The notes below the pieces were generated by a model. The model saw only the letters and a program-made list of their open reading frames with translations. It searched no databases and was not told where the DNA came from. Below are positions 4,708 through 64,000 of a stretch of DNA of 64,000 nt, one piece after another; within the stretch, counting starts at the first letter, position 1; each line of letters opens with the position of its first letter. This stretch comes from Halotia branconii CENA392 (lineage in GTDB: Bacteria; Cyanobacteriota; Cyanobacteriia; Cyanobacteriales; Nostocaceae): positions 1,653,455 to 1,717,454 of the forward strand of contig NZ_CP124543.1 of the NCBI RefSeq assembly GCF_029953635.1, read 5' to 3'. Both the position numbers and the translations under genes were made by a program.

Positions 4708-5424
4708 TTACTCAGCGGTTGCTAGTTCGGTGCTGCCACGTGTGCGACGGCGTGTTAGGCTGTTGTATACCATCACACCAATCGCTTTGATTAAATTGCC
4801 TTCTAATTCTTTGAACAACTTCATGTTCATGCCGAAGGCAGCGTTGGCTTCATCAACAATGCGATCGCTTGTTGCATCATCCAAGGGTAGTTCATCCAAA
4901 GCTTGACGATACTTAGCTTTGAATCCCTTTTCGTCAGTAATATCTGCAAATTCATAGAAGGCTGTACCTTGTCCATCAGACAAGTTCATTGCTGTGACAG
5001 CAATATTTTTGAGAATTTGTCCTCCAGATAAATCACCCAAATAACGAGTGTAAGAATGGGCAATTAGTAATTCTGGTTCTGTTGCAGATATTTCTCTGAT
5101 GCGTTTTACATAAGCTTCACCGGCTGGTGATAGTTTAATTTGTTCGCGCCAGTTAGCCCCAAAATAGTAATTCAGGTCTTGCTCTAGGCTATGCTTACGA
5201 TTGAGTTGAGGAAAGTAAATTTTAGAAACAATTGGGTGCTGACGGTGCTTTTCCATCTCCTCTTCCATTGCCGAATAGACGAAGTAAAAGTTAGCAACTA
5301 GCTTCCGGTAAGAGTTTTTCTCTACTACTCCTTTTAAAAAACACTTGACAAAACCCACATTTTCTGCCATCGTGTGTGCTTTTTTAGTGCCTACACGCAA
5401 CTTGTTTGCTAAATTACTGCTCAT
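4708..5424 (-). CDS. ho1: Heme oxygenase (biliverdin-forming)
   Basis: 238 residues, the normal length for cyanobacterial HO-1. It opens heme to biliverdin, CO and iron using ferredoxin, the first step to phycobilins. Seen: the proximal-heme His region KKAHTMAENVGF near residue 17, and the signature YTRYLGDLSGGQIL around residues 125-140 with the distal helix glycines. The C-terminal tail is basic then polar. It is transcribed in the same direction as the CobW-type gene, with 169 bp between them; a shared transcript is possible but not shown. Confidence 0.96.
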   Translation of the reverse strand: MSSNLANKLRVGTKKAHTMAENVGFVKCFLKGVVEKNSYRKLVANFYFVYSAMEEEMEKHRQHPIVSKIYFPQLNRKHSLEQDLNYYFGANWREQIKLSPAGEAYVKRIREISATEPELLIAHSYTRYLGDLSGGQILKNIAVTAMNLSDGQGTAFYEFADITDEKGFKAKYRQALDELPLDDATSDRIVDEANAAFGMNMKLFKELEGNLIKAIGVMVYNSLTRRRTRGSTELATAE

Positions 5425-5619
5425 ACTAAATTTCTCAACTTTAAAGGGTCAACTACCAAAGTTTTGATTTACTAACAGCTACAAAAGGCCATTAAAAAGT
5501 TACCTTAAAACTATTTGATGAGAATTTATATTAAAATTTTTTAAGTAAAGGTAATTTGGTATCGTTGCTACCTTGTCATATCCTCTTCGGTGAAAGACTT
5601 ATCATTTAGACCGCAGGAG

Positions 5620-5740
5620 GCAGTGAGCGTACTTCGGCTTCGCCCTTCGGCTTGCTTCGACTGCGCGGCAGTTGAGCGAAGTCGAAACTCAGCAACCAAC
5701 GCTCAGGCTAAACTCAGTACAAGACGCTCAGTAACCAGAG
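5620..5740. repeat. Dispersed palindromic repeat block
   Basis: It contains the core CTTCGACTGC...GAAGTCGAAACTC. The 44 bases at 5680-5723 are repeated exactly at 41525-41568. Variants of the core occur near 12525, 20225, 22390, 53375 and 56660. This is a dispersed repeat family in spacers, not a gene. Confidence 0.8.
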
Positions 5741-49514: not shown

Positions 49515-49607
49515 AAACTTCATCCACAAGGGGATAGAGTTTTGTTAGTGGTCAGTGGTCAGTGGTCAGTTGTCAGTTGTCAGTAGTGTAATAAAGATGT
49601 TTTTAAT

Positions 49608-49669: not shown

Positions 49670-49753
49670 CCCCTGCCCCCTGCTCCCTGCTCCCTGCTCC
49701 CTGCTCCCTGCTCCCTGCTCCCTGCTCCCTGCTCCCTGCCCCCTGCCCCCTGC
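49670..49753. repeat. 7-bp short tandem repeat (CTCCCTG/CCCCCTG)
   Basis: About eleven copies of a 7-base unit. This is the classical heptanucleotide short tandem repeat described in heterocystous cyanobacteria. No coding use is evident. Confidence 0.92.
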
Positions 49754-49791: not shown

Positions 49792-50298
49792 TTATTGTCT
49801 GCTGAGTGTTTGATTACAGAGGGCGATTGTAAATGCCGTTGCTGCTGCCAGTGCTGCTACTGTGCGGACATGGTTCCAAAATGTCCAATTGGTGAGGTAT
49901 CTAGCCCACAGGTTAGCACCTTCAACGCTATCTGGTTTAGCGATCGCTAGTGCATCGTTCAGTGGTACATTAAACGCGATCGTCACTAAAATAGTGCCAA
50001 TTAAATAAAGCAAGCTGCCGATAAGTAAGTAGGTAGCACTAGGTTGATGCCACTTTAATATCGAGTCAATTCCTAGCAAAATGCAAGCTGTAGCCGTTCC
50101 AAACAGCGCCACCATAAACAACGGATTAATCGCTGTGATATTAATGGATTGCATCGCAGTAATACCCTCTTTCGGTTCTAATCGTGCAAGGGCATTCATC
50201 ACGAAAGTCGAAAAGGCAAAGAAGATGCCAGCCACCAACCCACAGCCTAGGGCTGCAAAAAGCGTCACAGGAAAACGCAAATTGTCAACAATCATCAT
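49792..50298 (-). CDS. DUF1772-family membrane protein
   Basis: 168 residues with four hydrophobic segments: FAALGCGLVAGIFFAFSTFV, INPLFMVALFGTATACILLG, ATYLLIGSLLYLIGTILVTI and a final one ending FTIALC. The pattern and NVPLNDALA plus WARYLTNWTFWNHVR match the DUF1772 (anthrone oxygenase-like) family as I recall it. No catalytic role can be shown. It is transcribed toward the tandem repeat and lies downstream of the PerR-like gene on the same strand. Confidence 0.8.
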   Translation of the reverse strand: MMIVDNLRFPVTLFAALGCGLVAGIFFAFSTFVMNALARLEPKEGITAMQSINITAINPLFMVALFGTATACILLGIDSILKWHQPSATYLLIGSLLYLIGTILVTIAFNVPLNDALAIAKPDSVEGANLWARYLTNWTFWNHVRTVAALAAATAFTIALCNQTLSRQ

Positions 50299-50349
50299 AC
50301 TTTAGTTTGATTTTAAAGTTGATATTAATTCATCTATCGTAATCAGGAA

Positions 50350-50772
50350 TTAATCAACTATACAGCGATCGCACAAACCCTGAACTGTGACTTCATAAGT
50401 CTCACCACGCAAACCAGGGCGGAGATTTTTCATTTCTATACACTGAAAATTATTCCAGGCGATGTCTTCAATAGCACCACATTGGCGACAACAAAAGTGA
50501 TGATGAGGCTCCACTTTGGCATCATAACGAGAAACCCCTTGCTCTAGCAACACCTCCCGCACCAGACCTACTTCTCGCAATGCCTGCAAAGAACTATAAA
50601 TCGTCGCCTGCGATGAGACGGGAAAATCTTTATTGAGTTCGGTGAGGATTTGCTCAACTGTAGGATGGTCGGCACGAGATAACAAATTTGCATAGACCGC
50701 AAATCGCTGAGGGGTCACTCTCAAACCCCTAGACTTTAAGGTTTGAACAATTGCGCTTGCTTGTTGCTGCAT
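50350..50772 (-). CDS. Fur-family repressor, PerR-like
   Basis: 140 residues. N-terminal winged helix (LKSRGLRVTPQRFAVYANLL; SSQATIYSSLQALREVGLV), then a metal-binding region PHHHFCCRQCGAIEDIA and a second pair GLCDRC. CxxC pairs hold structural Zn; the His cluster would hold regulatory Fe or Mn. Divergence from a peroxiredoxin gene argues for a peroxide-responsive PerR (FurC-type) rather than iron Fur. It probably represses that gene and itself. Confidence 0.88.
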   Translation of the reverse strand: MQQQASAIVQTLKSRGLRVTPQRFAVYANLLSRADHPTVEQILTELNKDFPVSSQATIYSSLQALREVGLVREVLLEQGVSRYDAKVEPHHHFCCRQCGAIEDIAWNNFQCIEMKNLRPGLRGETYEVTVQGLCDRCIVD

Positions 50773-50799
50773 ACTTGCTGCTGCATTTGATGATATATT

Positions 50800-50840
50800 A
50801 CCTAATTATAATTCATATTAGTAATAAATTAATATTATGT
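50800..50840. promoter_or_regulatory. Candidate PerR-box region
   Basis: TAATTATAATTCATATTAGT and the following AATAAATTAATATTATG show inverted AT-rich half-sites near the PerR consensus, between the divergent regulator and peroxiredoxin genes. The region is AT-rich anyway so chance matches are easy. Confidence 0.35.
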
Positions 50841-50969
50841 TTAACTTAAAAATATGCTTAAGTATTTATAACTATTGAATATTTATTAAATCAGAATTAT
50901 TCTGATTTACAAGCTGTAAAACGCAACCACAAGCTAACACACCCATTAATTGAGAGGTTCAATATAGCT

Positions 50970-51512
50970 ATGATCACAAAAGTTCCTAACGTTGTATTTA
51001 AAACCCGCGTTCGTGATGAGTCCATTGGTGGATCAAATCCTTTCCGTTGGCAAGATCTCACCACTCAAGAAATTTTCGGTGGTAAGCGTGTTGTTGTATT
51101 TTCACTACCTGGAGCTTTTACTCCTACTTGTTCCACCTCACACCTTCCCCGTTATGAAGAACTCTACGCAGATTTTCAAGCTTTAGGGGTGGATCGAGTA
51201 ATCTGTGTATCTGTGAATGATGCCTTCGTCATGTATCAGTGGGGTAAACAACAAAATGCGAAGAATGTTTTCTTGCTTCCTGATGGCAATGGTGAGTTTA
51301 CCCGTAAAATGGGGATGTTAGTTGATAAACATAACTTAGGCTTTGGAATGCGCTCTTGGCGTTATTCAATGGTAGTTAACGACGGTAACATCGAAAAAAT
51401 GTTCGTTGAGCCGGGTTTTGAAGATAGTTGCGCCACAGATCCGTTTGAAGTCTCAGATGCAGACACTATGCTGGCTTACCTCAAAGAAGCTAAGACCGCC
51501 GTTGCTGTTTAA
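50970..51512 (+). CDS. Prx5-type peroxiredoxin
   Basis: 180 residues, with a GAGAGG ribosome site upstream. It reduces peroxides with thiols. Seen: the peroxidatic Cys in [15 protein letters not shown] (Cys54) and a second Cys in [10 protein letters not shown]. The long N-terminal segment and [11 protein letters not shown] fit type II/Prx5 enzymes, which often use glutathione or glutaredoxin. The next gene encodes glutathione reductase, supporting a glutathione-driven cycle. Confidence 0.9.
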
Positions 51513-51608
51513 ACTTTGACAGAATTTAAATACTTTACACGATATCAATAATATGTAGAGGTGTGGCAATGTCGCATCTCTACAAAAAATCTCAACCCTG
51601 GTGGATAC

Positions 51609-52979
51609 ATGAGTTACGATTTCGACCTATTTGTAATTGGTGCAGGTTCCGGTGGTATTGCGACTGCCAGACGAGCCGCAGAATATGGTGCTAAGGTAGG
51701 GATTGCTGAGTTTGACAGACTAGGCGGAACCTGCGTTAATCGTGGCTGTGTTCCTAAAAAGTTAATGGTTTACGCCTCTCATTTTCCTGATTTATTTGAA
51801 GATGCCCAAGGCTATGGCTGGAGTCCAGTCAAAAGTACTATGGATTGGGAAAAGATGATTACGGCAGTCAACAATGAGGTGATTCGCCTGAATGGGATTT
51901 ATCAAAAAATGCTGGATAACTCTAAGGTGGAACTTTTAGAGGGACACGGCAAATTTGTGGATGCTCATACAATTGTAGTTGGCGAACGCCAAGTAACCGC
52001 AGATAAAATTTTGATTGCCGTTGGTGGTCATCCCATTAGACCCAATATTTTGGGAATTGAACACGCCATTACTTCCGATGATATTTTTCACCTCAAACAA
52101 CAGCCCAAACGCATGGTAATTTTGGGAGGAGGTTATATTGGTTCAGAATTTGCCTGCATCTTAAATGGCATGGGAACTGAAGTTACCCAAATAATTCGGA
52201 GTGACAAAATTTTGCGTGGCTTCGATGATGATTTGCGGACTGAAATTCAAGAAGGAATGGCTCATCATGGAATCAAGATTGTCCACAACAGCGAACTGAT
52301 TGCGATCGAAAAAGATTCAGAAGGAATTAAAGTTACAGTCCGCGGGAATGCTAAATCTGAGGAATCCGACGAATTTGAAGAAACAGTTGTGACTGATGCA
52401 GTCAGTTTAGCCGCGGTTGGTCGCAAACCAAACACTCACGAATTAGGTTTAGAAAATACCAAAGTCAAGCGTCACGATGGAGCAATTGTAGTTGATAAAT
52501 ACAGTCAAACAACTGAAGAAAATATCTATGCAGTTGGAGATTGTACAAATAACATTAATCTAACTCCAGTAGCAATTAATGAAGGTCGGGCTTTAGCAGA
52601 CACCTTATTTGGTGGTAAGTCTCGGATCATGAGTTATGAAAATGTCCCTACAGCTATCTTTACAACCCCAGAAGCGGCAACTGTCGGACTAACTGAGGCA
52701 GAAGCCAGAGAACAATACGGTGATGCGGTGAAGATTTATAAAAGTCGCTTCCGACCAATGTATTACACCTTAGCTGGTAAAGACGAAAAAACCATGATGA
52801 AATTGGTAGTCGATCAAACTACCGATAAGGTGTTAGGAGCGCACATGGTAGGCACAAGTGCCGCAGAGATTATTCAAGGTGTAGCGATCGCTGTTAAAAT
52901 GGGCGCAACCAAAGCTAACTTTGATGCCACAGTAGGGATACATCCTACTTCTGCTGAAGAATTTGTGACTATGCGATAA
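51609..52979 (+). CDS. gor: Glutathione-disulfide reductase
   Basis: 456 residues from ATG at 51609. The frame reaches 51561 but the upstream codons are not conserved in type. It reduces oxidised glutathione with NADPH. Seen: FAD site VIGAGSGGIATARRAAEYG, redox-active GGTCVNRGCVPKK, NADPH-binding ILGGGYIGSEFACIL, second FAD motif YAVGDCTNNINLTP and the C-terminal active-site HPTSAEEFVTMR. Separated by 96 bp from the peroxiredoxin gene in the same direction. Confidence 0.94.
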   Translation: MSYDFDLFVIGAGSGGIATARRAAEYGAKVGIAEFDRLGGTCVNRGCVPKKLMVYASHFPDLFEDAQGYGWSPVKSTMDWEKMITAVNNEVIRLNGIYQKMLDNSKVELLEGHGKFVDAHTIVVGERQVTADKILIAVGGHPIRPNILGIEHAITSDDIFHLKQQPKRMVILGGGYIGSEFACILNGMGTEVTQIIRSDKILRGFDDDLRTEIQEGMAHHGIKIVHNSELIAIEKDSEGIKVTVRGNAKSEESDEFEETVVTDAVSLAAVGRKPNTHELGLENTKVKRHDGAIVVDKYSQTTEENIYAVGDCTNNINLTPVAINEGRALADTLFGGKSRIMSYENVPTAIFTTPEAATVGLTEAEAREQYGDAVKIYKSRFRPMYYTLAGKDEKTMMKLVVDQTTDKVLGAHMVGTSAAEIIQGVAIAVKMGATKANFDATVGIHPTSAEEFVTMR

Positions 52980-53065
52980 GAGCCTGTTGAAACAACTAGG
53001 GTTTACACCATTTCACTAAATATTTGAAACAAATGATTGGTCTTTAATTCTTTCCCCCTGGTTAC

Positions 53066-53358
53066 CTACGGTGTACACACAAGTCATCTAAAACTGCCCC
53101 ATTGACTAACAATGCGATTGTATCGGCTGACAGTGCCAATGTCTCGACTAACAATGCGATTGTATCGGCTGACAATGCCAATGTCTCGACTGACAATGCG
53201 ATTGTATCGGCTGACAATGCCAATGTCTCGACTAACAATGCGATTGTATCGGCTGACAATGCCAATGTCTCGACTAACAATGCGATTGTACTGGCCTGCA
53301 AAAATTAACCCACCTGACGTTACACAGCAACTCTAAAAGACTTGTGTGTACACGCTAG
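53066..53358. mobile_element. 293-bp element with 10-bp target duplications carrying a tandem array
   Basis: The ends CTACGGTGTACACACAAGTC (left) and CTAGCGTGTACACACAAGTC (right, read inward) are inverted repeats continuing with lower identity for about 32 bp. The perfect direct repeat CCCTGGTTAC flanks it at 53056-53065 and 53359-53368. The interior is mainly the 42-bp array. No transposase. Confidence 0.85.
53100..53290. repeat. 42-bp tandem repeat array (2 x 21 bp)
   Basis: About four and a half copies of a 42-bp unit, each unit itself two related 21-bp halves, sharing the pattern GCATTGTTAGTCGAGACATT / GCATTGTCAGCCGATACAAT on the minus strand. It is open in several frames because the period is a multiple of three, but is not called as a gene. 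It has no spacers, so it is not CRISPR. Confidence 0.9.
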
Positions 53359-53453
53359 CCCTGGTTACTGAGCGTCTTGTACTGAGCGAAGCCGAAGTAA
53401 GTCGAAGTATGCTCCCTGCTCCCCTGCTATCTACTTGTATCAATTTAACGGTA

Positions 53454-54911
53454 TTAGGTCATCGGCAATGTCAAGGTAAATGCGGTTTGCTCGTCAGATA
53501 TGGAATTTAGGGTAAGATCGCCCCGATGGGCGCGGGCAATTTCACGAGCTAAACTCAGTCCTAGTCCAATTCCTTCAACTTGTCGAGTACGCGCCGGATC
53601 GCCGCGATAGAAGCGGTCAAACAGGCGATCGCGATCGCTTTGGGGAATGTTTTTTGATGCATTGGCGATCGTAATCTGGATATTTGTGTGCATTTTCTTT
53701 ACGTAAATCTTGATCCAGCCGTTGGTAAGATTGTATTTGATGGCATTACTCAACAGATTTTGCAGAACTTGCATGAGTAAATCGCGATCGCCTTGTACCT
53801 TTAGTCCAGCAGGAATGTCAGTTTGCAAACTTAAGTGAGGAGCCAACAGTTCCACATCCTCAACCATCTCCATCAGCAACTGAGAAATATCCACTTCAAC
53901 TAAATACAAGCTCATTTGTCCTGCATCTGCTAGAGATAGCAGCAAGAGTTTCCGTATAATTCCACTCAGGCGGCGTACTTCATCCAAAAGATTGCTTAAG
54001 CGCTGTTGCACTTCACTTCCTGAGTCAACTTGTTGCAAAGTTCTTTCTAGTTCGCCTTGCAGAATAGTCAGCGGGGTTTTTAGTTCGTGGGCTGCGTCAG
54101 CACTAAAACGGGAAGCTTGAGTAAAACTGCGTTCCAGGCGTGACAGCATTTGGTTAAACACCTGAATCAATTCGACAAACTCAACATCAGTTGTACCAAT
54201 GGGAATCCGCTGATCTAGCCCTTTAACTGTCACCTGTTGAATTACACCCGTTAATTGAGCGATAGGACGCAAAGCCCCAGCAGAAATTAACCATGCTCCC
54301 ACCGCAACGAGTAGCAACGCTATCGGAATGGAAACAAAGAAGATATTGCGAATGCTAGCCATCTCTTGATTGACCAATTGCAGGCTCACAGCCAGAGCAA
54401 CCTGACTATTAGGAAATTTAACGGTTCCAATTCGCCAAGTTGTTTTTGTTGTTTGTAAAGTCACCAATTGCGGAGCAAGTGGGCGAAAGGGCGGTATATC
54501 TAAGGATGGATTTGGTCGTTCTCTAGTTGGGGGTGGTGGTATGGGTGTTAATTGAAGACGCTGAAGTAATAGGCGGTTCACCTCACTATCCGCAGGTAAA
54601 GAGTTAAATTTATCAACTGTCTTACCGTCGGCATCAAGCACTAACAAGGCGATAGGGGTTTTGGTATTGGTTCCGAAGCCGGGTAATAATTCTGGGCGCA
54701 GAGGCGTTAGCGCAGCCTCTCGTAAAGATCGCTTTCTTTCTGGTGGGCGACTAGCGCGCATTAACTGATTTAATAGTTCTGCATCAAGGCGGCTAATCTT
54801 GGCATTGTAAATCTGAAACCAGGAGACTGCACCAAACCCAACTAATGTACTGCCAGCCAGAGCCGCAGACAATAGAGCAATTCGGAGTCGAAACGATCGC
54901 AGTTGTTTCAC
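53454..54911 (-). CDS. Membrane sensor histidine kinase
   Basis: 485 residues, start GTG at 54911, overlapping the regulator's stop (GTGA). Two membrane helices: IALLSAALAGSTLVGFGAVSW (about 10-31) and FVSIPIALLLVAVGAWLI (about 195-212), enclosing a periplasmic domain with a Pro-rich stretch. HAMP after the second helix; HisKA ADAAHELKTPLTILQ; N-box LQNLLSNAIKYN; IGLGLSLAREI. It pairs with the upstream regulator in one operon. Resembles heavy-metal or stress sensors, but the ligand is unknown. Confidence 0.9.
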   Translation of the reverse strand: MKQLRSFRLRIALLSAALAGSTLVGFGAVSWFQIYNAKISRLDAELLNQLMRASRPPERKRSLREAALTPLRPELLPGFGTNTKTPIALLVLDADGKTVDKFNSLPADSEVNRLLLQRLQLTPIPPPPTRERPNPSLDIPPFRPLAPQLVTLQTTKTTWRIGTVKFPNSQVALAVSLQLVNQEMASIRNIFFVSIPIALLLVAVGAWLISAGALRPIAQLTGVIQQVTVKGLDQRIPIGTTDVEFVELIQVFNQMLSRLERSFTQASRFSADAAHELKTPLTILQGELERTLQQVDSGSEVQQRLSNLLDEVRRLSGIIRKLLLLSLADAGQMSLYLVEVDISQLLMEMVEDVELLAPHLSLQTDIPAGLKVQGDRDLLMQVLQNLLSNAIKYNLTNGWIKIYVKKMHTNIQITIANASKNIPQSDRDRLFDRFYRGDPARTRQVEGIGLGLSLAREIARAHRGDLTLNSISDEQTAFTLTLPMT

Positions 54912-55591
54912 AATTGAGATTCTGGTTTGCGAAACCGATAGCCAACACCGCGAATACTTTCAATCCAACTGACTTCATTGATGGGGTCAATTTTTTTACG
55001 GATGCGCTGGATACATACATCCACAACATTGGTGTTGGGGTTAAAGTCGTAACCCCAAATATGTTCTAGGATTTGGGTACGGGTAAAAACTCGTCCGGGA
55101 GAGCGCATCAGATATTCCAACAAATTAAACTCGCGGCTGGTAAGTTCAATTGCCTTTTGATTGCAAGTAACTTCTCGCGCGATGCGATCAAGTTTGATTG
55201 GCCCAACCGCTAAGAGATTTTGGCGTTCTCCCACACTCCGACGCACAACCGCATGAATCCGAGCCGCTAACTCTTCTACAAAAAACGGCTTGGCAATGTA
55301 ATCATCGGCTCCTAAGTTTAAACCTTCCAGGCGATCATCAAGTTCATTACGAGCCGTCAACAAAATTACTGGAGCATTACGACCTTCTCGCCGCAGTTGT
55401 TTGAGAATCGATAATCCATCTTTTCCCGGAACCATAATATCCAGAATAATCGCATCATATTCGTTATCCAATGCTCGCAGATATCCTTCATCACCATTGT
55501 CACAGTAGTCTACGACAAATCCCTGCTCCTTCAGCCCAGCCCGGACGAAGTTAGCAATTTTTGCTTCATCTTCAACAAATAGAACGTTCAC
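54908..55591 (-). CDS. OmpR-type response regulator
   Basis: 227 residues. Receiver: VLFVEDEAKIANFVRAGLKE, Asp in AIILDIMVPGKDGLS, Lys in YIAKPFFVEEL. C-terminal winged helix with TSREFNLLEYLMRSPGRVFT and IRGVGYRFRKPE. It is the first gene of the two-gene operon and is similar to CusR/CopR-type regulators; metal response is only suggested. Confidence 0.92.
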   Translation of the reverse strand: MNVLFVEDEAKIANFVRAGLKEQGFVVDYCDNGDEGYLRALDNEYDAIILDIMVPGKDGLSILKQLRREGRNAPVILLTARNELDDRLEGLNLGADDYIAKPFFVEELAARIHAVVRRSVGERQNLLAVGPIKLDRIAREVTCNQKAIELTSREFNLLEYLMRSPGRVFTRTQILEHIWGYDFNPNTNVVDVCIQRIRKKIDPINEVSWIESIRGVGYRFRKPESQL

Positions 55592-55856
55592 AAGTATTTA
55601 TTACTTTATTTATTGCTTTATTTTAAATTGATTACTCTTAAGCTGAAATTACAAAAGTGTAATTGAGAAACTAGGTCAGCTGTCATTTTGGGGTGGCTTA
55701 ATCAAAAATGTAAACACAATAATTTTTGAGGTCAAAGAAGAGGCAGAGGGGCAGGGAGCGGGGAGCAGGGGAGAAGACCCCATCTATGAATGGAAGGGCT
55801 TGGTGGGGATTAAATCCCCGTCCGAGAACAAATTATGAATACTTACAATAGACATC

Positions 55857-56627
55857 ATGAAAAACAAAAATCGCCCATTAAGTAGGATTTTGAGCCGAAG
55901 AGAAGCACTCGCTTTATTTAGGGCAGCCGGAACTGCAATACTTGTAGTGGGATGCATACCCAGAAAGTCTGGTTCTACACAAGCCCCATCTGGTGCAACT
56001 GTCCTAGCATCATCATCTACACCTGCCTGTGTTGTCAGTCCAGAACAAACTGAAGGGCCATATTTTGTAGACGAAAAGCTCAACCGTTCCGATATCCGTA
56101 CTGATCCAACGGATGGTTCGGTGAAAGAAGGCGTACCACTACAACTGACGCTGAACGTTTCTCAAGTTGGTAGTAATGGTTGCACACCTTTAGTGGGTGC
56201 GATTGTGGATGTTTGGCACTGTGACGCGTTGGGTGTCTATTCGGATGTGACAGACCGCAGTTTTAGCACTGTCGGTAAAAAGTTTCTACGCGGCTATCAA
56301 GTAACCGACGCGAAGGGAAATGTGCAATTCACAACCATTTATCCTGGTTGGTATCAAGGTAGAACTGTGCATATCCATTTTAAAGTCCGCACAAATGGTA
56401 CATCACAACAAGATTACGAATTTACGTCACAGCTATATTTTGATGATGCAATCAGCGATCGCGTGTACACCCAAGCACCCTACGCCAGTAAGGGACAGCG
56501 CACACAAAAGAATGCTGATGACGGAATTTTTCAAGATGGTGGCGAACAAATGTTGCTCAAGCTTACCCAGAACGGACAAGGTTATGCAGCGACCTTAAAT
56601 ATTGGGCTTGATACCGTTTCACTTTAA
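55857..56627 (+). CDS. Intradiol ring-cleavage dioxygenase-like protein, exported
   Basis: 256 residues. The N-terminus has a Tat-like or lipoprotein-like signal: LSRREALALFRAAGTAILVVGC. Cys at residue 33 may be lipidated. The C-terminal domain is the intradiol dioxygenase fold: EGPYFVDEKL near 65, then Tyr of ALGVYSD, and IYPGWYQGRTVHIHFKV, giving Tyr-Tyr-His-His Fe(III) ligands. Members cleave catechols; a secreted form may act on extracellular phenolics. Its cyanobacterial role is unknown. Confidence 0.85.
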   Translation: MKNKNRPLSRILSRREALALFRAAGTAILVVGCIPRKSGSTQAPSGATVLASSSTPACVVSPEQTEGPYFVDEKLNRSDIRTDPTDGSVKEGVPLQLTLNVSQVGSNGCTPLVGAIVDVWHCDALGVYSDVTDRSFSTVGKKFLRGYQVTDAKGNVQFTTIYPGWYQGRTVHIHFKVRTNGTSQQDYEFTSQLYFDDAISDRVYTQAPYASKGQRTQKNADDGIFQDGGEQMLLKLTQNGQGYAATLNIGLDTVSL

Positions 56628-56639
56628 AGTTGATACATT

Positions 56640-56760
56640 TGGGCAAGCAGGGGGCAGCACTTCGACTACGCGGCAGTTGAGCGTAGTCGAAACTCAGTGA
56701 CCGGGGCAGAGGAGGCAGGGGGAGCAGGGGAAGCAGGGGGCAAATGGTAATTTTCACGCC
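56640..56760. repeat. G-rich repeats interrupted by a palindromic repeat
   Basis: GCAGGGGGCA-type repeats flank a copy of the CTTCGACTACGCGGCAGTTG family at about 56660-56702. Confidence 0.7.
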
Positions 56761-56806
56761 TTTATTTTCTAAAATTAAGTAGAACGGCGTAAATAATTAA
56801 AGGTTT

Positions 56807-56852
56807 GTAGTGAGGACTTTAGTCCTCAAAGAAGGGCTTCAGCCCTTACTAC
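56807..56852. repeat. Three-way-junction palindrome
   Basis: Outer stem GTAGT/ACTAC encloses two inner hairpins: GAGGACT/AGTCCTC and AAGGGCT/AGCCCTT. It lies between the dioxygenase and pentapeptide genes, which are convergent, so it may end both transcripts. This form is a dispersed cyanobacterial repeat. Confidence 0.8.
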
Positions 56853-56913
56853 GAACTGAATTTTAATTCTTTTATATTGCTTAACATAGTTTGGTTTTTT
56901 CTCGCCGACTTAC

Positions 56914-58998
56914 TTATCCCAAACCGAATAGTTGAGAAATTATTGGTAATAATTTATTCGCTTCTTCTACCAATTTAGCGACAGTAGGTAAGCCAGAAAA
57001 TAAACCTTTCAACATCGTGATGGCTTTTTTTGCTGTCTTTTGCTTAGTGGGTTCTTGTTGCGGATTTTTACCAGCTTCGGCTAGAGTTTGCACTTGTTCT
57101 AAAGCATCGGCTTTGTCTTCATCAGATAATTCTGATGACTGAGAAATTGTCGCTTGTAACTGTGTCAGTAATTCTTTAATTCCTGGCTTGTCACCATCTG
57201 AGGAATCAGGTAACTCATTAATCGCAATATTCACATTGCCGCTAATTGTTCCCAGATTGGCAACAGAACCACCACCCGCAACACCGCTAACATTACTGCT
57301 ATTTTGAATATTAATGCCGCTAATATCAGACACTTTATTATCTCCTGCTATATGATATTTGGACTGCTGGAGTGCAGTTGTGAGCATAATTTCTAAACTA
57401 CGAATGCGATCGTCTTTTTCTATAAGTAGTAATTGCTGACTTTGAGATAAAGCTTTGAGTTGATTATAATCATCAAAATATTCTGCGCTCAATTGTGATT
57501 TATTAATTCCTGCCGCAGTTGTGGCGCGGAGTAACAAGTTATCATCGCCGCGTTTCTCCATTGCGACGATTTCTAACTCAGCTTCGGGATGATTTTCAAC
57601 AAGGTTTTTGAAGGCAATAGCAACAGCGCGGGGGTCAACGCCTTGATTGTGATAAAGGTCGAGGGTGTCAAAAATTGGCTTGATAAATTCTGCAAAGTCG
57701 CCGTCTTGAAATACTTCTTGGTGATTATCTGGTTTGCGGAGGGGGTCGGGGTTGGTTTTAGTGGGTAAGCGCATGAAGATATATTCACACCTCACGCCAT
57801 GCAGTTTAGTTTCATTGGTAATGCCCCAATCTTCAATGAATGCACCTGTGAGGGTTGCGCCTGTGAAATCGGTTGCGTCAAGTTGGGTTTGTTTGAGTTT
57901 CGCTCTGGATAAATCAGCATCTTGCAAATTAGCTTCGCTGAGGTCAGCACCGATAAAGCTGGCATCTGCTAGGTTAGCTGATTGTAAGTTGATACCCCGT
58001 AGATTTTGGCGATCAAAGTTTTTATCTTGTCCTTGTCCGGTAACTAGCAGTTTACGTACTTGTGAGTTTTGCAGATAAGTTGAACCAGAGCGAACGCGGT
58101 CAAGCATTTTGACTTGATGCCAATAGGTAAGGGTAAGGGTGGCGTTGCGGAAATCTGTACTTTTGAGTTTAGCTTGGGTGAAGTCGGCATTGGTCAAGTT
58201 AGCGTTACGAAAGCTTGTACCACCTGTAGCGGCGAATGCAATAGCGACATCACGAATTAGGGAATATTTTTCGTTTCCTTTCATCGCTTGCCAAGCGATG
58301 TAAATGCTCAATAACATTCCGGCAAAGGCTCCGGCAAAGGCTCCGGTGATGGCGAAGGTGAAGGCGACAGAGAAAGCAAAGGCTCCGGTAAAGGCTCCAG
58401 CAAAGGCAAAGGCGACAGCGAAGGCAAAGGCTCCTGCGACAGCTCCGGCAAAGGCAAAGGCTCCGGCGAAAGCAAAGGCTCCTGCGACAGCGAAGGCGAT
58501 AGCGATAGCGATGGCTCCTGCGACGGCAACGGCGATGGCGATGGCAATGGCTCCTGCGACGGCGACAGCGACGGCAACGGCGATGGCTCCGACGACGGCA
58601 ACGGCGACGGCAACGGCGACGGCGACGGCAACAGCGACTAAACCAGCTGTTAATCCCTGACGAGTGGTGATGAAGTAGAAGGCAATCAAGACGATTAAAG
58701 CAACCCAGCCTGGAATTTGGTTTTCTAGAGATGAGCTAAATACCTGCGACACTAAGAAACCATTAAAAGCCGATAAATATCCTGATAGTTCCGACAATAA
58801 AAACGAAACAAGAACTAAACTAATTACCCAACGTTTTTGTAATCCAGCTTGAGAGTAACTGAAGTTTGCATCTGTGAGGTTAGCACCGCTAAAGTTTGCC
58901 CCTCGAATATCGGCATAGCTAAAGTTTGCACCTACAAAGTCTTGTCTACCCTTGAAGTTGCGTCCTCGGAGATTTTGACCGGAGAAGTCTAAAGCCAT
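56914..58998 (-). CDS. Pentapeptide-repeat membrane protein with Ala-Val-rich tract
   Basis: 694 residues from ATG at 58998. N-terminal pentapeptide repeats (VGANFSYADIRGANFSGANL), two hydrophobic helices, then residues about 118-232 made almost only of Ala, Val, Ile, Phe and Gly dipeptides (AVAVAVAV, GAFAFAGAFAFAG), which would form several membrane helices. A second pentapeptide block (FRNANLTNADFTQAKL; SANLADASFIGADLSEANL) follows, then a charged region, NIQNSSNVSGVAGGGSVANL and a C-terminal helical domain ending LLPIISQLFGLG. That C-terminal domain recurs in cyanobacterial signalling or conflict proteins as I recall. Function unknown. Confidence 0.8.
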   Translation of the reverse strand: MALDFSGQNLRGRNFKGRQDFVGANFSYADIRGANFSGANLTDANFSYSQAGLQKRWVISLVLVSFLLSELSGYLSAFNGFLVSQVFSSSLENQIPGWVALIVLIAFYFITTRQGLTAGLVAVAVAVAVAVAVAVVGAIAVAVAVAVAGAIAIAIAVAVAGAIAIAIAFAVAGAFAFAGAFAFAGAVAGAFAFAVAFAFAGAFTGAFAFSVAFTFAITGAFAGAFAGMLLSIYIAWQAMKGNEKYSLIRDVAIAFAATGGTSFRNANLTNADFTQAKLKSTDFRNATLTLTYWHQVKMLDRVRSGSTYLQNSQVRKLLVTGQGQDKNFDRQNLRGINLQSANLADASFIGADLSEANLQDADLSRAKLKQTQLDATDFTGATLTGAFIEDWGITNETKLHGVRCEYIFMRLPTKTNPDPLRKPDNHQEVFQDGDFAEFIKPIFDTLDLYHNQGVDPRAVAIAFKNLVENHPEAELEIVAMEKRGDDNLLLRATTAAGINKSQLSAEYFDDYNQLKALSQSQQLLLIEKDDRIRSLEIMLTTALQQSKYHIAGDNKVSDISGINIQNSSNVSGVAGGGSVANLGTISGNVNIAINELPDSSDGDKPGIKELLTQLQATISQSSELSDEDKADALEQVQTLAEAGKNPQQEPTKQKTAKKAITMLKGLFSGLPTVAKLVEEANKLLPIISQLFGLG
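58300..58645. repeat. 6-bp/12-bp tandem tract inside the pentapeptide gene
   Basis: Repeated GGCGAC/GGCAAC and GGCTCC/GGCAAAGGC units. It encodes the Ala/Val-rich tract on the minus strand. Copy number in multiples of six keeps the frame. Confidence 0.85.
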
Positions 58999-59142
58999 GT
59001 GTAGTTTGACGGGGTTGAGCAAATTTTACTACACGCTTAAGTTTGTTAATTCCAATATTTCTCTATTTAGCCTGATTAGTCCTACGTGAAGGCAAGGGAA
59101 CAGGAGAAATAAAAACAGGCTTATCTGAACTGTATTGACTAT

Positions 59143-59333
59143 TAATACATCGCCTTGCATTGTTAATGTATCGTCCTGCACTGTTAATGTATTGCCCCGC
59201 ATTGTTAATGCATCACCCCGCATTGTTAATGTATTGCCCCGCAATGTTAATGCATCGCCCCGCATTGTTAATGTATCGCTCTGCATTGTTAATGCATCAC
59301 CCCGCATTGTTAATGTATCGCTCTGCATTGTTA
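59143..59333. repeat. 21-bp tandem repeat array
   Basis: About nine copies of GCATTGTTAATGTATCGCCCC-type units (written here without the terminal base variants), each 21 bp. It lies just upstream of the pentapeptide gene. The unit shares GCATTGTTA with the 42-bp array at 53100. It is open in two frames but not called as a gene. Confidence 0.85.
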
Positions 59334-59373
59334 AATTGAACAAAAATATTTACAGTTATTGCAAACGTCATAG

Positions 59374-59592
59374 CTACATGCAGTCTTTGAGGTCTTCTAA
59401 GGGTGCGTCAAAGTCAGCAGCCATAGTAAACATACCTTTCATGGTTCCCGCTTGGCGATATTTTTGGGGCGGCGTTTCGGAGGGTGATGTCTCAGCATAT
59501 TTAGCTGCAAGGTATTCGGCATAGTGAAGAATTTCGACTTGGAGATTTGGAGGAAGTTTATCGAGAGTTGCAATTAGTTGAGGTGGGATCAT
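59374..59592 (-). CDS. DUF2281-like small protein
   Basis: 72 residues from ATG at 59592. It starts MIPPQLIATLDKLPPNLQVE, a helical opening with LHYAEYLAAKY, and ends AGTMKGMFTMAADFDAPLED, the DUF2281 C-terminal pattern that resembles VapB-type antitoxins. No toxin gene lies beside it. It may be an orphan antitoxin. Confidence 0.78.
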   Translation of the reverse strand: MIPPQLIATLDKLPPNLQVEILHYAEYLAAKYAETSPSETPPQKYRQAGTMKGMFTMAADFDAPLEDLKDCM

Positions 59593-59769
59593 CGGCTTAT
59601 CTATAGAAGTGTATATATTTTTTATGATGATCGATCTTGCGACGGAGGCTTTAAGAAGCGCCAGCATTGCCTCTACCTAGCTGGGCAAATAGGCGCTAAA
59701 ACATAAAAATCATTGCGATAGTCAATCTCCCTGTTCATTCTTCCAGTTTGTTCCAAAAGACAAACTTTA

Positions 59770-59856
59770 GACCTCTTGCAAAAGTCGTTACTTGCGCTCT
59801 TTTCTTTGCGCCTTTGCGCCTTTGCGTGAGACAAAAAAATATTTATGCAAGAAGTC
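59770..59856. mobile_element. MITE-like element related to MITE B
   Basis: Ends GACCTCTTGCAAAAGTC (left) and GACTTCTTGCATAAAT (right, read inward). TA is on the left (59768-59769) but TT on the right, so the target duplication is not intact. The interior has CTTTGCGCCTTTGCGCCTTT. Confidence 0.55.
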
Positions 59857-59858
59857 TT

Positions 59859-62800
59859 TTATACAGGAATCTCAATCAAAAATTCTGTCCCTTCACCCAA
59901 AACTGAATTGCAACTCAATTTACCAGCATGAGTTTCTTCAACAATTTGTCTGGCTATGGCTAATCCCAATCCCGTCCCTTTACCAACAGCTTTGGTTGTA
60001 AACAAGTGGTCAAATATTTTTTGTTGTACTTCTTCACTCATTCCCTTTCCATTATCAGTAATAGCAATTTTCACACCTTCATTCTCTTGGAAGGTTTTAA
60101 TTGTAATTTGATTGGGATTAGCTTTAATTTCCGGTAAACTTCGACCTATATTTGATTCATCTAAGGCATCAATGGCATTAGCAAGAATATTCATAAATAC
60201 CTGATTTAACTGCCCAGGAAAACATTTAACTTGGGGTAATTCCCCATAATTAGTTATCACTTCAATTGCTGGGCGTTGTGCATTTGCTTTCAGGCGATGT
60301 TTGAGAATTAAAATAGTACTATCGATACCTTCATGAATATTAAATGGCACTTTGTAATCTTTATCAGCGCGGGAGAAAGTTCGTAAACTGGTGCTAATAT
60401 TTGTTAATCTGTCACACGCCATATTCATGGAATCAATCATCTTGGGTAAATCTTCTAAGCTATAATCCAAGTCGATTTCTTGGGCGTGGTTGATAATTTG
60501 ATTGCCTGGATTGGGAAAATTTTCTTGATAAAGTTTTAAATGTTCGATAATATCCATCAGGCTGGGTTTTGCTTGTTGCAGACTAGCATAAATAAAACCC
60601 AAAGGATTATTCATTTCATGGGCTACCCCTGCTACTAAGTTCCCCAATGCCGACATTTTTTCGCTTTGGACAATTTGTAATTGTGCTTGTTGTAAATCTT
60701 GTAATGCTTGCCCGGTTTGTTGATAAAGTTGAGCATTTTCTAAAGATATCGCTGCTTGAGAAGACAGTAAGTTAATTACGCTCAGGCGATCGCCCTTGGC
60801 GTTGGCGGAGCGATCGCTGTTAAATACCCCTGGAATCATTTTATTTTCTAAATAGAGAATCCCCAGAAAATGACCTTGATTAATAATCGGAGTACAAAAT
60901 ACACTTTGGGGTTGGTGTAACAACATATATTGGCCAATTAAACCGGGAATATCTGTTTTGCAATTATCTATGACAACTGAATTTTGAGTATTTTTGACGT
61001 AATTGATAATATTTACGGGAATATCTGGACAATTATCTAATGGTTGCGCTCGGAGACTTGTTTCAATTTCCTCGTGCTGGATAAAAGTAATTGCTCGTAC
61101 TTGCCAAATATCGCCGGACACTTGCTTTAACGGGCAGGCAAGTCCATGAGTTGATTTCTCAACTTGAACGGACTGCCCTTGTTCTTGGGGAAGTAGCAAT
61201 ACAGCTTTTCTCGCGCCAGAGTTTTCTAAGATAATCCGGGTGAGACTGGCGATGAGTGTATTTAATTCCAAAGTACTGGAAATAGCTTGAGCCGCTTTCA
61301 GGGCAGAGGTAAAATCTAAAACGTCGGAAATATTGGTGCTGTCGGTGCTATTGTTACAGGTAGATAAGAGACTCCCATGAGTAAGAGTTTCTTGAGGGTT
61401 GGGGTTGAGTCGTTGCTGTTGCAGAATAAGTTGCAGTAATCGGGGATAGCGTTGTTCTAAATCGGTAACTTTGGCTTTTGCTCCCCACCGGGAATAAGCA
61501 TAGTAGGCGGCAATTAAATAATCTTTGGCAATGCGTTCTTTGCCCCATTCGAGATAAAATTTGGTGGCGAGTTCGTTGGCGAGAGCTTCTTCATTAATAT
61601 ATTCGTGTTTCTTGGCAAGAGCGATCGCGCGATCATAGTTTTCTATCGCTTTGGCTCTATCTTCCAAGACTCGACAACGTTCTGCAACAATCAAGGTGCA
61701 ACGGTGAGCTTGATTGCTCGATGCATAAGCTGTCCACCCGTTAAGTTTTTCTAGGTTAGCAGCAACCCGCTCTAGAATACTTGACTGTTCGGTTTCGCTG
61801 GCATTTGCATAAAGCGCTAATTGTACTAAGGCATCGTAGAAGTAAAAAAGCGGAACGCTCATCAATCCTGCCATGCCGCGCAAATACGGGGCTGCTAGAT
61901 TGGCGTTTTCCAACGCTTGTTCGTAGTGTTGAAACAAATAGCAAAGTATCAGCTTATTTAAATAAACTTGGTGCAGTGCCGTTACTTCACCCGTTTTTTG
62001 GTAAAGCTGAATCATTTCTCGCTCGTCGCAGTATTCACCAATTAACACCTCTGGCTGGGTTGACTCTCCTAATAAATTCACGACTACCTGATGGTAAAGA
62101 CTTTGGGTGTGGAGATAAGTATGCTGGCGTAGTTGCTGCATCACGCGGCGATGATCTTCTAGTATTTGCTTGAGGTCAGACAGTTCGCCACCAGTAAAAT
62201 AAGTATTATGGTCGTACACGAGCAGGCTGAGTGCTGCCAGATTGAAATCACCAACTTCTAATGCACTGGTGTATGCTTGCAGTAGACCTGCTAGAGAAGT
62301 TTTTGCAGGTTCTTTCCAATGTTTGAAGAAGCAATTAAAGTCAAACAGGGCTGCGGCTATATGCTTGGGTGACTGGAGGTATTGCAGGAGTTTCATCTCC
62401 AGCTGTCCAAAGCAATAGCCCGCTTCAATATTACCCAATATGGCAATCAACATTAACCCATACAAACCGTAGGCATGAATCGATTCTGATGAATTTCCGT
62501 ACTGCACCGATAGATCGAACTGCGCGAAGACTACTAGAGGCATGAGGTTGGGAGCAGCTTGATAGGCAGGCGACATGATGGTAGACAGAATCATCATTGC
62601 TGCTTTTTTGTCCGGCGCAGTCATTGGGGGTAAATGCAACAAAGATTCTATCGCGCGATCGCTTAGTTGAATTTGGGTATGCTGGAGTGCTTGTCCAATG
62701 TCGGCTGGGGTGGGCTGCTCTGGCAAATGTACCCCCAGAGGTTCGAGGACTTTTCGCGCCAGTTCCAGGGCTTCTAAAAGTTGGTTTTGCGCCATATAAG

Positions 62801-64000
62801 CTCGAATCTTCGTGTCGTAAACGTTAATTCGATCAAGCCAAGAACGGGCATGAGCGAGTACAATCTCAGCGAACTGCTCCATTTGTTCAAAGTTAGCGTA
62901 CAAAAAAGCACAATTAGCTGCACCTTCATAGAGAACGAGGGCGAGGGTATAGTGGTTCTGCCAGCAATCGCCCTTCAATAAAGAAATGCCCGTGTTGAAA
63001 TAGTCTAAAGCTGCCCCATAAGCCGTTGCACCCTTAGCTTTCTGTCCAGCCATCAAATTTAACTGTACGAGTTCTTGTTGTTCTGTTTCATCCTCAATCA
63101 GAGATATCCCCTTGTTGAGATGATTAGCGATCGCAAAAATCTGTTTATCCAGTTCGTTGACACTGGTTGCTTTTTGCAGCAAACGTCCAATCTGGAGGTG
63201 AGTAATTTGCTTTTCGGCTTCTGGAATTAGAGAATACGCTGCTTGCTGAACGCGATCGTGCAAAAACTTGTATGTCACAGTCTCTGGAATTTCTGGAGTA
63301 ACTATTTGACTTTCTTGCCCGACATAAAACTTATAAACTTCACTAATCGGTAAAATCAACCCTTCTTGCAACGCTTTCCACAATTCACCAGCTATTTCTA
63401 TCTCTGAGTGTTGCGAAACAATTGCCAAAGTTGCTAAATCAAATTGACTACCAATACAAGCAGCTAACTGTAATATGTGTTGAGTAGATGGCGGCAGTTT
63501 TCGTAATTGCAATGCCATAAATTCAACAACATCATCTGTAACTGCTTGCTGAGTTACTCGTGCAATATCGCATTGCCAAAACCCTGACTTAAAGTTAAAT
63601 TCAATCAGTTGCTCTTGATGTAGCGCTTTGAGAAACTGCGTCGCAAAAAACGGATTACCTTGAGTTTTTTGATATATCAATTTAGCAAGAGGCAAGGCTA
63701 AATTTTCTGTACATTTGAGCGTGTTAGCAACTAACTGATTCACTTGAGCGTGATTTAGAGGTGCTAAAGTAATCGTATTAATCGCTGCTTGGGTTTTTTG
63801 AATATCGCTCAAAGTCAATATTAATGGATGTGCTGGATTAACTTCGTTATCGCGATATGCACCAATTAATAAAAGATGACTTGTATCAGTCATTAATAGC
63901 TGCATTAAATTTAGTGATGCCGAATCTGCCCATTGCAAATCGTCTAAAAACATCACTAACGGATGTTCGGCGCTAGTAAAAACTTTAGTAAACTTTTGAA
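59859..64000 (-). CDS. Large trifunctional-type sensor kinase, C-terminal part
   Basis: The frame is open to the right edge, so the N-terminus is outside; at least 1380 residues are visible. Seen: a Walker B-like MFLDDLQWADSASLNLMQ of the AAA/NB-ARC-type domain, a long helical middle with many TPR-like segments, GAF (about residues 880-1060), HisKA VAGVAHEMNNPLGFIYASLQ (about 1100) and HATPase DNGKGMS ... GTGLGLAIARQIVEE. This matches the cyanobacterial kinases with an N-terminal Ser/Thr kinase, AAA domain, GAF and histidine kinase. The Ser/Thr kinase domain is not in view. Signal unknown. Confidence 0.92.
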   Translation of the reverse strand, partial: QKFTKVFTSAEHPLVMFLDDLQWADSASLNLMQLLMTDTSHLLLIGAYRDNEVNPAHPLILTLSDIQKTQAAINTITLAPLNHAQVNQLVANTLKCTENLALPLAKLIYQKTQGNPFFATQFLKALHQEQLIEFNFKSGFWQCDIARVTQQAVTDDVVEFMALQLRKLPPSTQHILQLAACIGSQFDLATLAIVSQHSEIEIAGELWKALQEGLILPISEVYKFYVGQESQIVTPEIPETVTYKFLHDRVQQAAYSLIPEAEKQITHLQIGRLLQKATSVNELDKQIFAIANHLNKGISLIEDETEQQELVQLNLMAGQKAKGATAYGAALDYFNTGISLLKGDCWQNHYTLALVLYEGAANCAFLYANFEQMEQFAEIVLAHARSWLDRINVYDTKIRAYMAQNQLLEALELARKVLEPLGVHLPEQPTPADIGQALQHTQIQLSDRAIESLLHLPPMTAPDKKAAMMILSTIMSPAYQAAPNLMPLVVFAQFDLSVQYGNSSESIHAYGLYGLMLIAILGNIEAGYCFGQLEMKLLQYLQSPKHIAAALFDFNCFFKHWKEPAKTSLAGLLQAYTSALEVGDFNLAALSLLVYDHNTYFTGGELSDLKQILEDHRRVMQQLRQHTYLHTQSLYHQVVVNLLGESTQPEVLIGEYCDEREMIQLYQKTGEVTALHQVYLNKLILCYLFQHYEQALENANLAAPYLRGMAGLMSVPLFYFYDALVQLALYANASETEQSSILERVAANLEKLNGWTAYASSNQAHRCTLIVAERCRVLEDRAKAIENYDRAIALAKKHEYINEEALANELATKFYLEWGKERIAKDYLIAAYYAYSRWGAKAKVTDLEQRYPRLLQLILQQQRLNPNPQETLTHGSLLSTCNNSTDSTNISDVLDFTSALKAAQAISSTLELNTLIASLTRIILENSGARKAVLLLPQEQGQSVQVEKSTHGLACPLKQVSGDIWQVRAITFIQHEEIETSLRAQPLDNCPDIPVNIINYVKNTQNSVVIDNCKTDIPGLIGQYMLLHQPQSVFCTPIINQGHFLGILYLENKMIPGVFNSDRSANAKGDRLSVINLLSSQAAISLENAQLYQQTGQALQDLQQAQLQIVQSEKMSALGNLVAGVAHEMNNPLGFIYASLQQAKPSLMDIIEHLKLYQENFPNPGNQIINHAQEIDLDYSLEDLPKMIDSMNMACDRLTNISTSLRTFSRADKDYKVPFNIHEGIDSTILILKHRLKANAQRPAIEVITNYGELPQVKCFPGQLNQVFMNILANAIDALDESNIGRSLPEIKANPNQITIKTFQENEGVKIAITDNGKGMSEEVQQKIFDHLFTTKAVGKGTGLGLAIARQIVEETHAGKLSCNSVLGEGTEFLIEIPV

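Follow-up and report, generated by a model that had tools for sequence, protein, structure and literature searches.

A hypervariable hydrophobic module, encoded in many lineages by in-frame hexamer arrays, in a family of cyanobacterial pentapeptide-repeat proteins

Results

Organization of the gene and its protein

The window, a 64,000-nucleotide stretch of Halotia branconii CENA392 DNA, carries on its minus strand an ORF that runs from an ATG at 58998 to 56914 and encodes 694 residues. Reading from the N-terminus, a pentapeptide block is followed by two helices and a tract of 116 residues, after which come a second pentapeptide block and a C-terminal region that is uncharacterised. Pentapeptide membership is met, with PF00805 scoring 97.6 bits over four stretches against a Pfam cut-off of 20.2; the structure model and Foldseek agree, and Pfam and the model both place pentapeptide blocks on either side of the tract. 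None of three more specific families was reached: HetL (NF047416) gave 62.3 bits against a cut-off of 260, the Alr5209 family (NF052603) 71.4 against 125, and the Qnr family (NF033086) 43.2 against 240. The alignments used for structure prediction had 51 and 35 rows; the model of residues 2–420, from the 51-row alignment, has a mean pLDDT of 72.6, and its numbering is the protein's minus one.

The N-terminal pentapeptide block (residues 2–50; 58849..58995, minus strand, as for the other parts of the protein) is a predicted quadrilateral beta-helix with its best PF00805 stretch at residues 20–49, modelled at pLDDT 87–97 by blocks of ten and with one strand residue per five. Two conserved helices (residues 55–114; 58657..58836), seen in the alignments and modelled at 54–86 and 90–113, end in a positively charged anchor. 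They are followed by the dipeptide (Ala-X) tract at residues 115–230 (58309..58656), a degenerate in-frame hexamer array that forms a hypervariable hydrophobic module. The alignments define a conserved, charged end of this module (SIYIAWQAMKGNEK; 58264..58308), beyond which Pfam, the model and Foldseek place the second pentapeptide region at about residues 260–409 (57772..58221). Across the tract the model gives helices at 115–147, 155–181, 189–203 and 209–238, and a further helix at 242–258 leads into the second beta-helix region. Confidence is mostly above pLDDT 87 in the beta-helix blocks and below 50 over 146–225 of the tract.

The remainder of the protein comprises a conserved region at about residues 395–545 (57364..57816), for which there is no Pfam family and only a low-confidence model, and a mostly helical domain at about residues 569–694 (56917..57294), whose helices, starting near residue 586, have pLDDT values of 72–91 in blocks of ten. 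A search of the C-terminal part against PDB sequences found no relative (best E 0.27), and no PDB fold was matched at E≤0.001 with a model of mean pLDDT 58; a known domain in this part was rejected on these results. The C-terminal domain resembles the PADLOC profile PDC-M14B, the best of three profiles, at E 7.5e-6, with residues 569–690 aligned to profile positions 155–265 of 267. A match over the whole of this candidate defence profile was not met, and the similarity to its end may be a lead, but only that. The first-pass annotation had described a C-terminal domain of unknown role, and apart from this weak similarity it is still uncharacterised.

The tract of the window's copy

All 49 alanines of the 116-residue tract fall on one parity, and D, E, K, R, H, N and Q are absent. 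TRF reported periods of 6, 12, 18, 24, 36 and 48 bp over 58318–58638; since the 6-bp row (25.8 copies) has only 71% matches, the array is degenerate rather than perfect. Codon purity over A, G, V, F, I and L is 0.736, where the remainder of the gene predicts 0.464; none of 500 resamplings attained the observed value, which lies above the 99% point (0.667) and below the maximum (0.775) of 3244 windows from other ORFs. In a stricter test, coverage by exact 18-mer repeats is 0.32 versus a mean of 0.144 for synonymous shuffles within the tract, with 6 of 200 shuffles attaining it, so that by exact repeats the window's copy meets the definition of a coding variant-repeat array only at the borderline. 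The first-pass annotation had proposed about 115 alternating residues, encoded by a 6-bp repeat and lying between pentapeptide blocks; this held, with the qualification that the array is degenerate in the window.

Within its own genome the tract DNA matched nothing except itself. The same genome holds two further long relatives, L003, with a non-repetitive hydrophobic region, and L002 (1501–3555), a second family member broken by an internal stop codon; another place, L005/L007, has fragments only, with two stops in L007. Long ORFs in other frames overlie the tract at 58304–58660 (plus strand) and 58308–58631 (minus strand), and are likely by-products of hexamer periodicity, not genes.

The tract as a predicted membrane module

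Insertion of the tract into the membrane, which the first-pass annotation had also proposed, is a prediction that rests on high hydropathy and a low-confidence helical model. In 51 repetitive tracts, an average of 82% of 19-residue windows exceed a hydropathy of 1.6 (this analysis and that of unit order left out the 34-residue tract L039). Positive charge is found at both ends of the hydrophobic module, and we therefore infer that both pentapeptide blocks are cytoplasmic and that the number of crossings is even. An alternative reading is that the alternating small and hydrophobic residues form silk-like beta-strands and not membrane helices. Two-residue alternation and (GA)n stretches resemble silk-type repeats, and the alternation here is strict, with (GA)n stretches in L027 and L192, for example. 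Against this reading, the model gives helices, if with low confidence, non-repetitive relatives at the same place look by eye like ordinary transmembrane segments, and the hydropathy windows are as high as stated; we consider it very unlikely.

As regards hydrophobicity, repeat units follow one another almost at random (mean z −0.21, n=51; 3 tracts above 2 and 5 below −2). The possibility that regularly spaced glycine-rich units form loops was rejected, as hydrophobicity is not clustered beyond unit shuffles.

Distribution and sampling of the family

At E≤1e-40, 157 of 192 genomes within the family have a homologue. Among genomes sampled from the order the count is 117 of 243, among those sampled from the phylum 46 of 292, and among plasmid records 27 of 72,556. 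Carriers known by name include Nostoc, Cylindrospermum, Calothrix, Fortiea, Komarekiella, Desmonostoc and Amazonocrinis. Profiles of the flanks yielded 146 distinct tracts in three extractions. The first gave a tract at 120 of 139 loci (97 distinct) and none at 19 (L003–L010, L045, L047, L049, L113, L114, L128, L129, L133, L134, L135 and L139); the second gave 26 new tracts from 38 loci, with 7 duplicates and 5 loci not matched by both anchors; and the third gave 23 new tracts from 31 loci, with 8 duplicates. The 18-mer shuffle, codon dictionary and RNA folding analyses cover 97 tracts, and codon purity was scored in 123. Among the loci missed by the profiles, L113, L114 and L134 have the same soluble domains and, between the pentapeptide blocks, a different, non-repetitive hydrophobic module without visible similarity. 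At L128 (Nostoc sp. KVJ20) the reading frame shifts inside the tract, at about 5377–5696, through a sequencing error or a real break.

Tract lengths range from 34 (L039) to 191 residues (L196), about 107 being typical. The 57 repetitive tracts average 104.0 residues (sd 15.5), the 37 intermediate ones 114.7 and the 52 non-repetitive ones 107.9 (sd 11.1), with no difference in length between the repetitive and the non-repetitive group (Mann-Whitney p 0.28). At least 95% of alanines lie on one parity in 42 of the 57 repetitive tracts versus 7 of the 52 non-repetitive ones. Content spans AVAVAV, GAGAGA, ALALAG, AIASAI, AFPFPF and ordinary hydrophobic sequence, and in strongly alternating tracts the non-alanine positions are mainly G, V, F, I and L.

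Hexamer arrays and fixed codon dictionaries

The 57 most alternating tracts are in-frame arrays of a few hexamers (GGAGCC, GTAGCC, TTCGCC and others) that use mostly one codon per amino acid. With few units, variable order and number, and silent positions shared beyond chance, the family's repetitive tracts satisfy the definition of a coding tandem-repeat (variant-repeat) array. Pooled over 97 tracts, alanine is GCC at 70% inside and 19% outside, and glycine is GGA at 82% inside and 30% outside, while GGC, GGT and codons ending in G are rarer in tracts than in the rest of the genes. Individual dictionaries can be close to absolute. GTA, GGA, TTC and GCC are nearly the sole codons of the L027 tract; alanine is GCC at 48 of 48 positions in L058 and 59 of 59 in L189; and L153, built from almost nothing except GTAGCA, GGAGCA and TTCGCA, has 54/54 alanines as GCA, 24/24 glycines as GGA and 27/27 valines as GTA, with all four alanine codons in use outside the tract. 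An assembly artefact is thought unlikely, as the pattern recurs in many genomes, including the one-contig genome of L189.

Codon purity is 0.838 in the 52 repetitive tracts among the 123 scored, versus 0.466 expected from the rest of the same genes. It lies beyond all 500 same-gene resamplings in 85 of the 123, made up of 49 from the 52 tracts that alternate most, 27 from the 33 intermediate tracts and 9 from the other 38, and 43 of 57 repetitive tracts exceed the maximum of the 3244 other-ORF windows. Alternation correlates with the use of GCC and GGA (Spearman 0.70 and 0.69, 97 tracts), and, at each even spacing between 2 and 40 codons, two copies of the same residue are encoded alike more frequently than synonymous shuffling gives. 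Exact 18-mer repeat coverage is unmatched by any synonymous shuffle in 22 of 97 tracts; 36 of the 97 have no repeated 18-mer, 3 of these being strongly alternating. Runs of at least eight GC-phased hexamers occurred 218 times in 871,504 bases from 148 overlapping sequences, half of them (109) on the tract strand, the other 109 on the strand opposite a tract, and none elsewhere; the scan was limited to these sampled bases, and the other genes of whole genomes lie outside it.

One feature counts against array drift as the source of the dictionaries: glycine is mostly GGA in all 70 scored tracts with alternation of at least 0.20, whatever the alanine codon, and drift of arrays alone does not predict such uniformity. 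It is possible that selection set the dictionary, favouring codons that keep a long mRNA (or single-stranded DNA) of high GC content and low complexity from folding on itself, the repeats being a by-product of the few codons allowed. In support, when native tract RNA is set against 15 synonymous recodings, it folds more weakly than any of them in 69 of the 70 tracts with higher alternation and in 14 of the 27 with the lowest; the window's tract folds at −83 kcal/mol compared with −151 kcal/mol when recoded, despite its higher native GC content. The rarity of GGC, GGT and G-ending codons and the use of GGA for glycine even where alanine is GCA point the same way, and with alanine fixed as GCC only 23 of 367 random one-codon dictionaries fold as weakly (12 hand-picked tracts of the 97). 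Against it, GCC strengthens structure on average relative to GCA in 12 of 12 tracts, in L121 by only 0.4 kcal/mol; between 0 and 35% of all random dictionaries fold as weakly as the native one or more weakly in the 12 picked tracts; and the main valine codon switches between GTA and GTC at least 17 times among 50 tracts, as copying from a local founder predicts. Because GCC is not the least-folding alanine codon, selection on mRNA structure is insufficient as the whole explanation. It remains a possible rival for part of the codon pattern, in that avoidance of self-pairing may shape which glycine, valine and leucine codons survive, but not the choice of GCC.

Change between relatives

Codon alignments were obtained for eight of nine requested pairs, the remaining pair having no tract. 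In the five repeat-bearing pairs all 18 gaps are even, of 2, 4 or 6 codons, whereas the non-repetitive pairs show two one-codon gaps (L033/L104), one four-codon gap at the edge (L090/L097) or none (L095/L096). Even gaps are partly favoured in alignment by the alternation itself, and the counts of alanine parity are the firmer evidence. The gaps in repeat-bearing pairs also keep the frame, but codon alignment left the frame no freedom to vary. In L074 and L088, whose flanks are near-identical, 24 of 122 tract codons have changed versus 11 of 285 flank codons (Fisher p 9e-7), and the tracts differ by three gaps of 2, 4 and 4 codons; one of the two genomes (G085) is listed with 38% contamination.

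On a FastTree of C-terminal flanks from 121 of the 123 tracts, the repetitive or non-repetitive state changed at least 22 times (33 intermediate tracts being left out), and the valine codon switches given above were counted on the flank tree as well. Recombination between tract and flank would inflate both counts. In L034 and L122, silent sites have changed at 0 of 96 positions in the tract versus 43 of 284 in the flanks, the tract being the more conserved, and the two are not neighbours on the flank tree. As the tract is shared and the flanks are apart, tracts may also be exchanged by recombination.

It could be argued that the diversity stems chiefly not from slippage but from paralogues and strains exchanging tracts, or entire membrane modules, with one another. 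The L034/L122 pair, the different modules of L113, L114 and L134, and the plasmid copies support this. Against it, pure arrays with their own dictionaries and the even-codon gaps of close pairs point to local repeat dynamics, and we regard exchange as an unlikely main source.

Within species no tract variation was seen in the two small sets available, L202–L204 (non-repetitive) and L205–L206 (intermediate), whose tracts are identical; neither is a pure-array set. The first-pass annotation had suggested that tract length may vary between strains, and this held between species, over the 146 tracts, and was not seen within the species sets examined. Its proposal that the hydrophobic segment grew from a 6-bp repeat is supported between species by lineage-specific codon dictionaries and by L074/L088. 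An invariant tract with non-repetitive codons in relatives would have refuted it; non-repetitive relatives exist, and the tract is not invariant.

Upstream array, leader and neighbourhood

A 21-bp tandem array lies 143–335 bp upstream of the start codon (59142..59334, minus strand) and accompanies the gene in most orthologues examined: of the 34 orthologues with enough sequence, 28 have such an array in the 450 bp before the gene, versus 3 of 21 more distant relatives. Arrays were seen in L011, L026, L030, L116, L121, L137 and others, with units that differ between species. In 24 of the 28 there is a stop-free, seven-codon sense frame, and minor-base fractions at the three codon positions in 24 arrays are 0.117, 0.148 and 0.166; in the window's array the third position varies least. 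Given this codon-position variation, the array is not clearly coding, and it was rejected as a coding leader.

About 80 bp before the start codon (58999–59080, approximately) look conserved in orthologues. By eye, many orthologues show an inverted repeat in this leader, GGTGAGC...GCTCACC, which flanks GTGTAGTAAAATTT and may be an operator over a promoter; in the window it is imperfect. Rfam gave no match upstream of the gene at E≤1, and a regulatory role for the array or leader is at present a guess. Another 21/42-bp tandem array, with units resembling those of the upstream array, is found at 53104–53290, and 7-bp tandem repeats occur at 49547–49584 and 49671–49753; heptamer tandem repeats are typical of Nostoc intergenic DNA. 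The neighbours common to 17–18 of 40 named loci are what we take to be an NDH subunit-like gene and a flavoprotein-like gene. Besides the family gene, only one of the window's ORFs within 50001–64000 is shared, with 3 loci.

The arrays might also be considered an adaptive contingency locus, with a length tuned by selection within populations. In favour, 6-bp units keep the frame, lengths vary between close relatives, and a second tandem array lies upstream of the gene. Against it are the absence of within-species variation in the two small sets and the similar lengths of repetitive and non-repetitive forms, the latter suggesting tolerance over tuning. We think it unlikely.

Discussion

Between conserved anchors, this family carries a module that is hypervariable in sequence, clusters near 107 residues in length and is, in many lineages, encoded by an in-frame hexamer array. 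Between species the sequence of the tract differs strongly, with much smaller changes in total length and in the remainder of the protein. We propose that the tract is a hydrophobic helical module under low constraint, which hexamer expansion has created anew time and again and point mutation has worn down, a reading to which we assign a probability of about 0.65.

According to this proposal, the protein would be a membrane-anchored pentapeptide-repeat scaffold. We infer that selection keeps mainly the length and hydrophobicity of the module, so that the DNA could grow, shrink or be rearranged in steps of whole hexamers, through slippage or unequal recombination. A new hydrophobic module would thereby arise repeatedly, and point mutation would turn the array into ordinary, non-repetitive sequence. 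Specific function would reside in the soluble domains, for which a role in scaffolding or partner binding may be inferred; the biochemical role is unknown. Several observations weigh against the proposal, among them the pLDDT below 50 over 146–225 of the tract, the degeneracy of the window's array, its borderline exact-repeat coverage and its codon purity below the background maximum, the tracts without any repeated 18-mer, the L034/L122 pair, the uniform use of GGA and the identical tracts of L205 and L206.

A bolder reading is that coding hexanucleotide arrays have repeatedly given rise to a membrane domain in one protein family of a cyanobacterial order, that selection acts on nothing except length and hydrophobicity, and that the array may be hypermutable in living populations. 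This reading rests on the module of about 107 residues, written repeatedly in a few hexamer words, the fixed silent positions with varying residues and the near-random order of units, and as a whole we judge it slightly less probable than its contrary.

How membrane segments originate from nothing is an open question, for which a single host protein, in this family, supplies numerous natural replicates. One site is occupied by pure arrays, by half-decayed ones and by modules that look ordinary, all of similar length and with related flanks. This makes the route from microsatellite to membrane domain measurable and tests, in nature, the amount of sequence that a membrane module needs. A fixed codon dictionary with variable amino acids is the reverse of the usual pattern, and is a further puzzle that distinguishes the copying of repeats from selection for RNA structure.

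Both the pentapeptide family and tandem repeats in coding sequence have been described before. In the open-access PMC papers searched, we recognised no case of a family in which hexamer arrays renew a membrane module; subscription papers and preprints lay outside this search. Foldseek matched the model, through its pentapeptide blocks, to the Nostoc pentapeptide structures NP275/NP276 (2j8k), HetL (3du1) and Alr5209 (6omx), with low TM-scores over the whole model; these proteins are not known to have a membrane module. HglK, a cytoplasmic-membrane protein of Nostoc/Anabaena PCC 7120 described as having four N-terminal spans and 36 C-terminal pentapeptide repeats (PMC8145042), also combines predicted membrane spans with pentapeptide repeats in one cyanobacterial protein. 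Its layout of N-terminal spans followed by C-terminal pentapeptides is not that of the present family, where pentapeptide blocks stand on both sides of the hydrophobic module and an additional C-terminal region comes after them, a comparison that concerns layout only and not sequence. Like the phase-variable simple-sequence-repeat (contingency) loci of Neisseria and Helicobacter, these genes have short tandem repeats tied to them; in contrast to those loci, the 6-bp units keep the frame, so that no on/off switch is expected, and hypermutation has not been shown. Minisatellite variant repeats are arrays of a few unit variants. Variable coding tandem repeats of this kind (PMC3899988) share with the present tracts an in-frame array of few unit variants that change in order and number; the present tracts differ from them in having a 6-bp unit and in encoding a hydrophobic, probably membrane-spanning module with a length near 107 residues.
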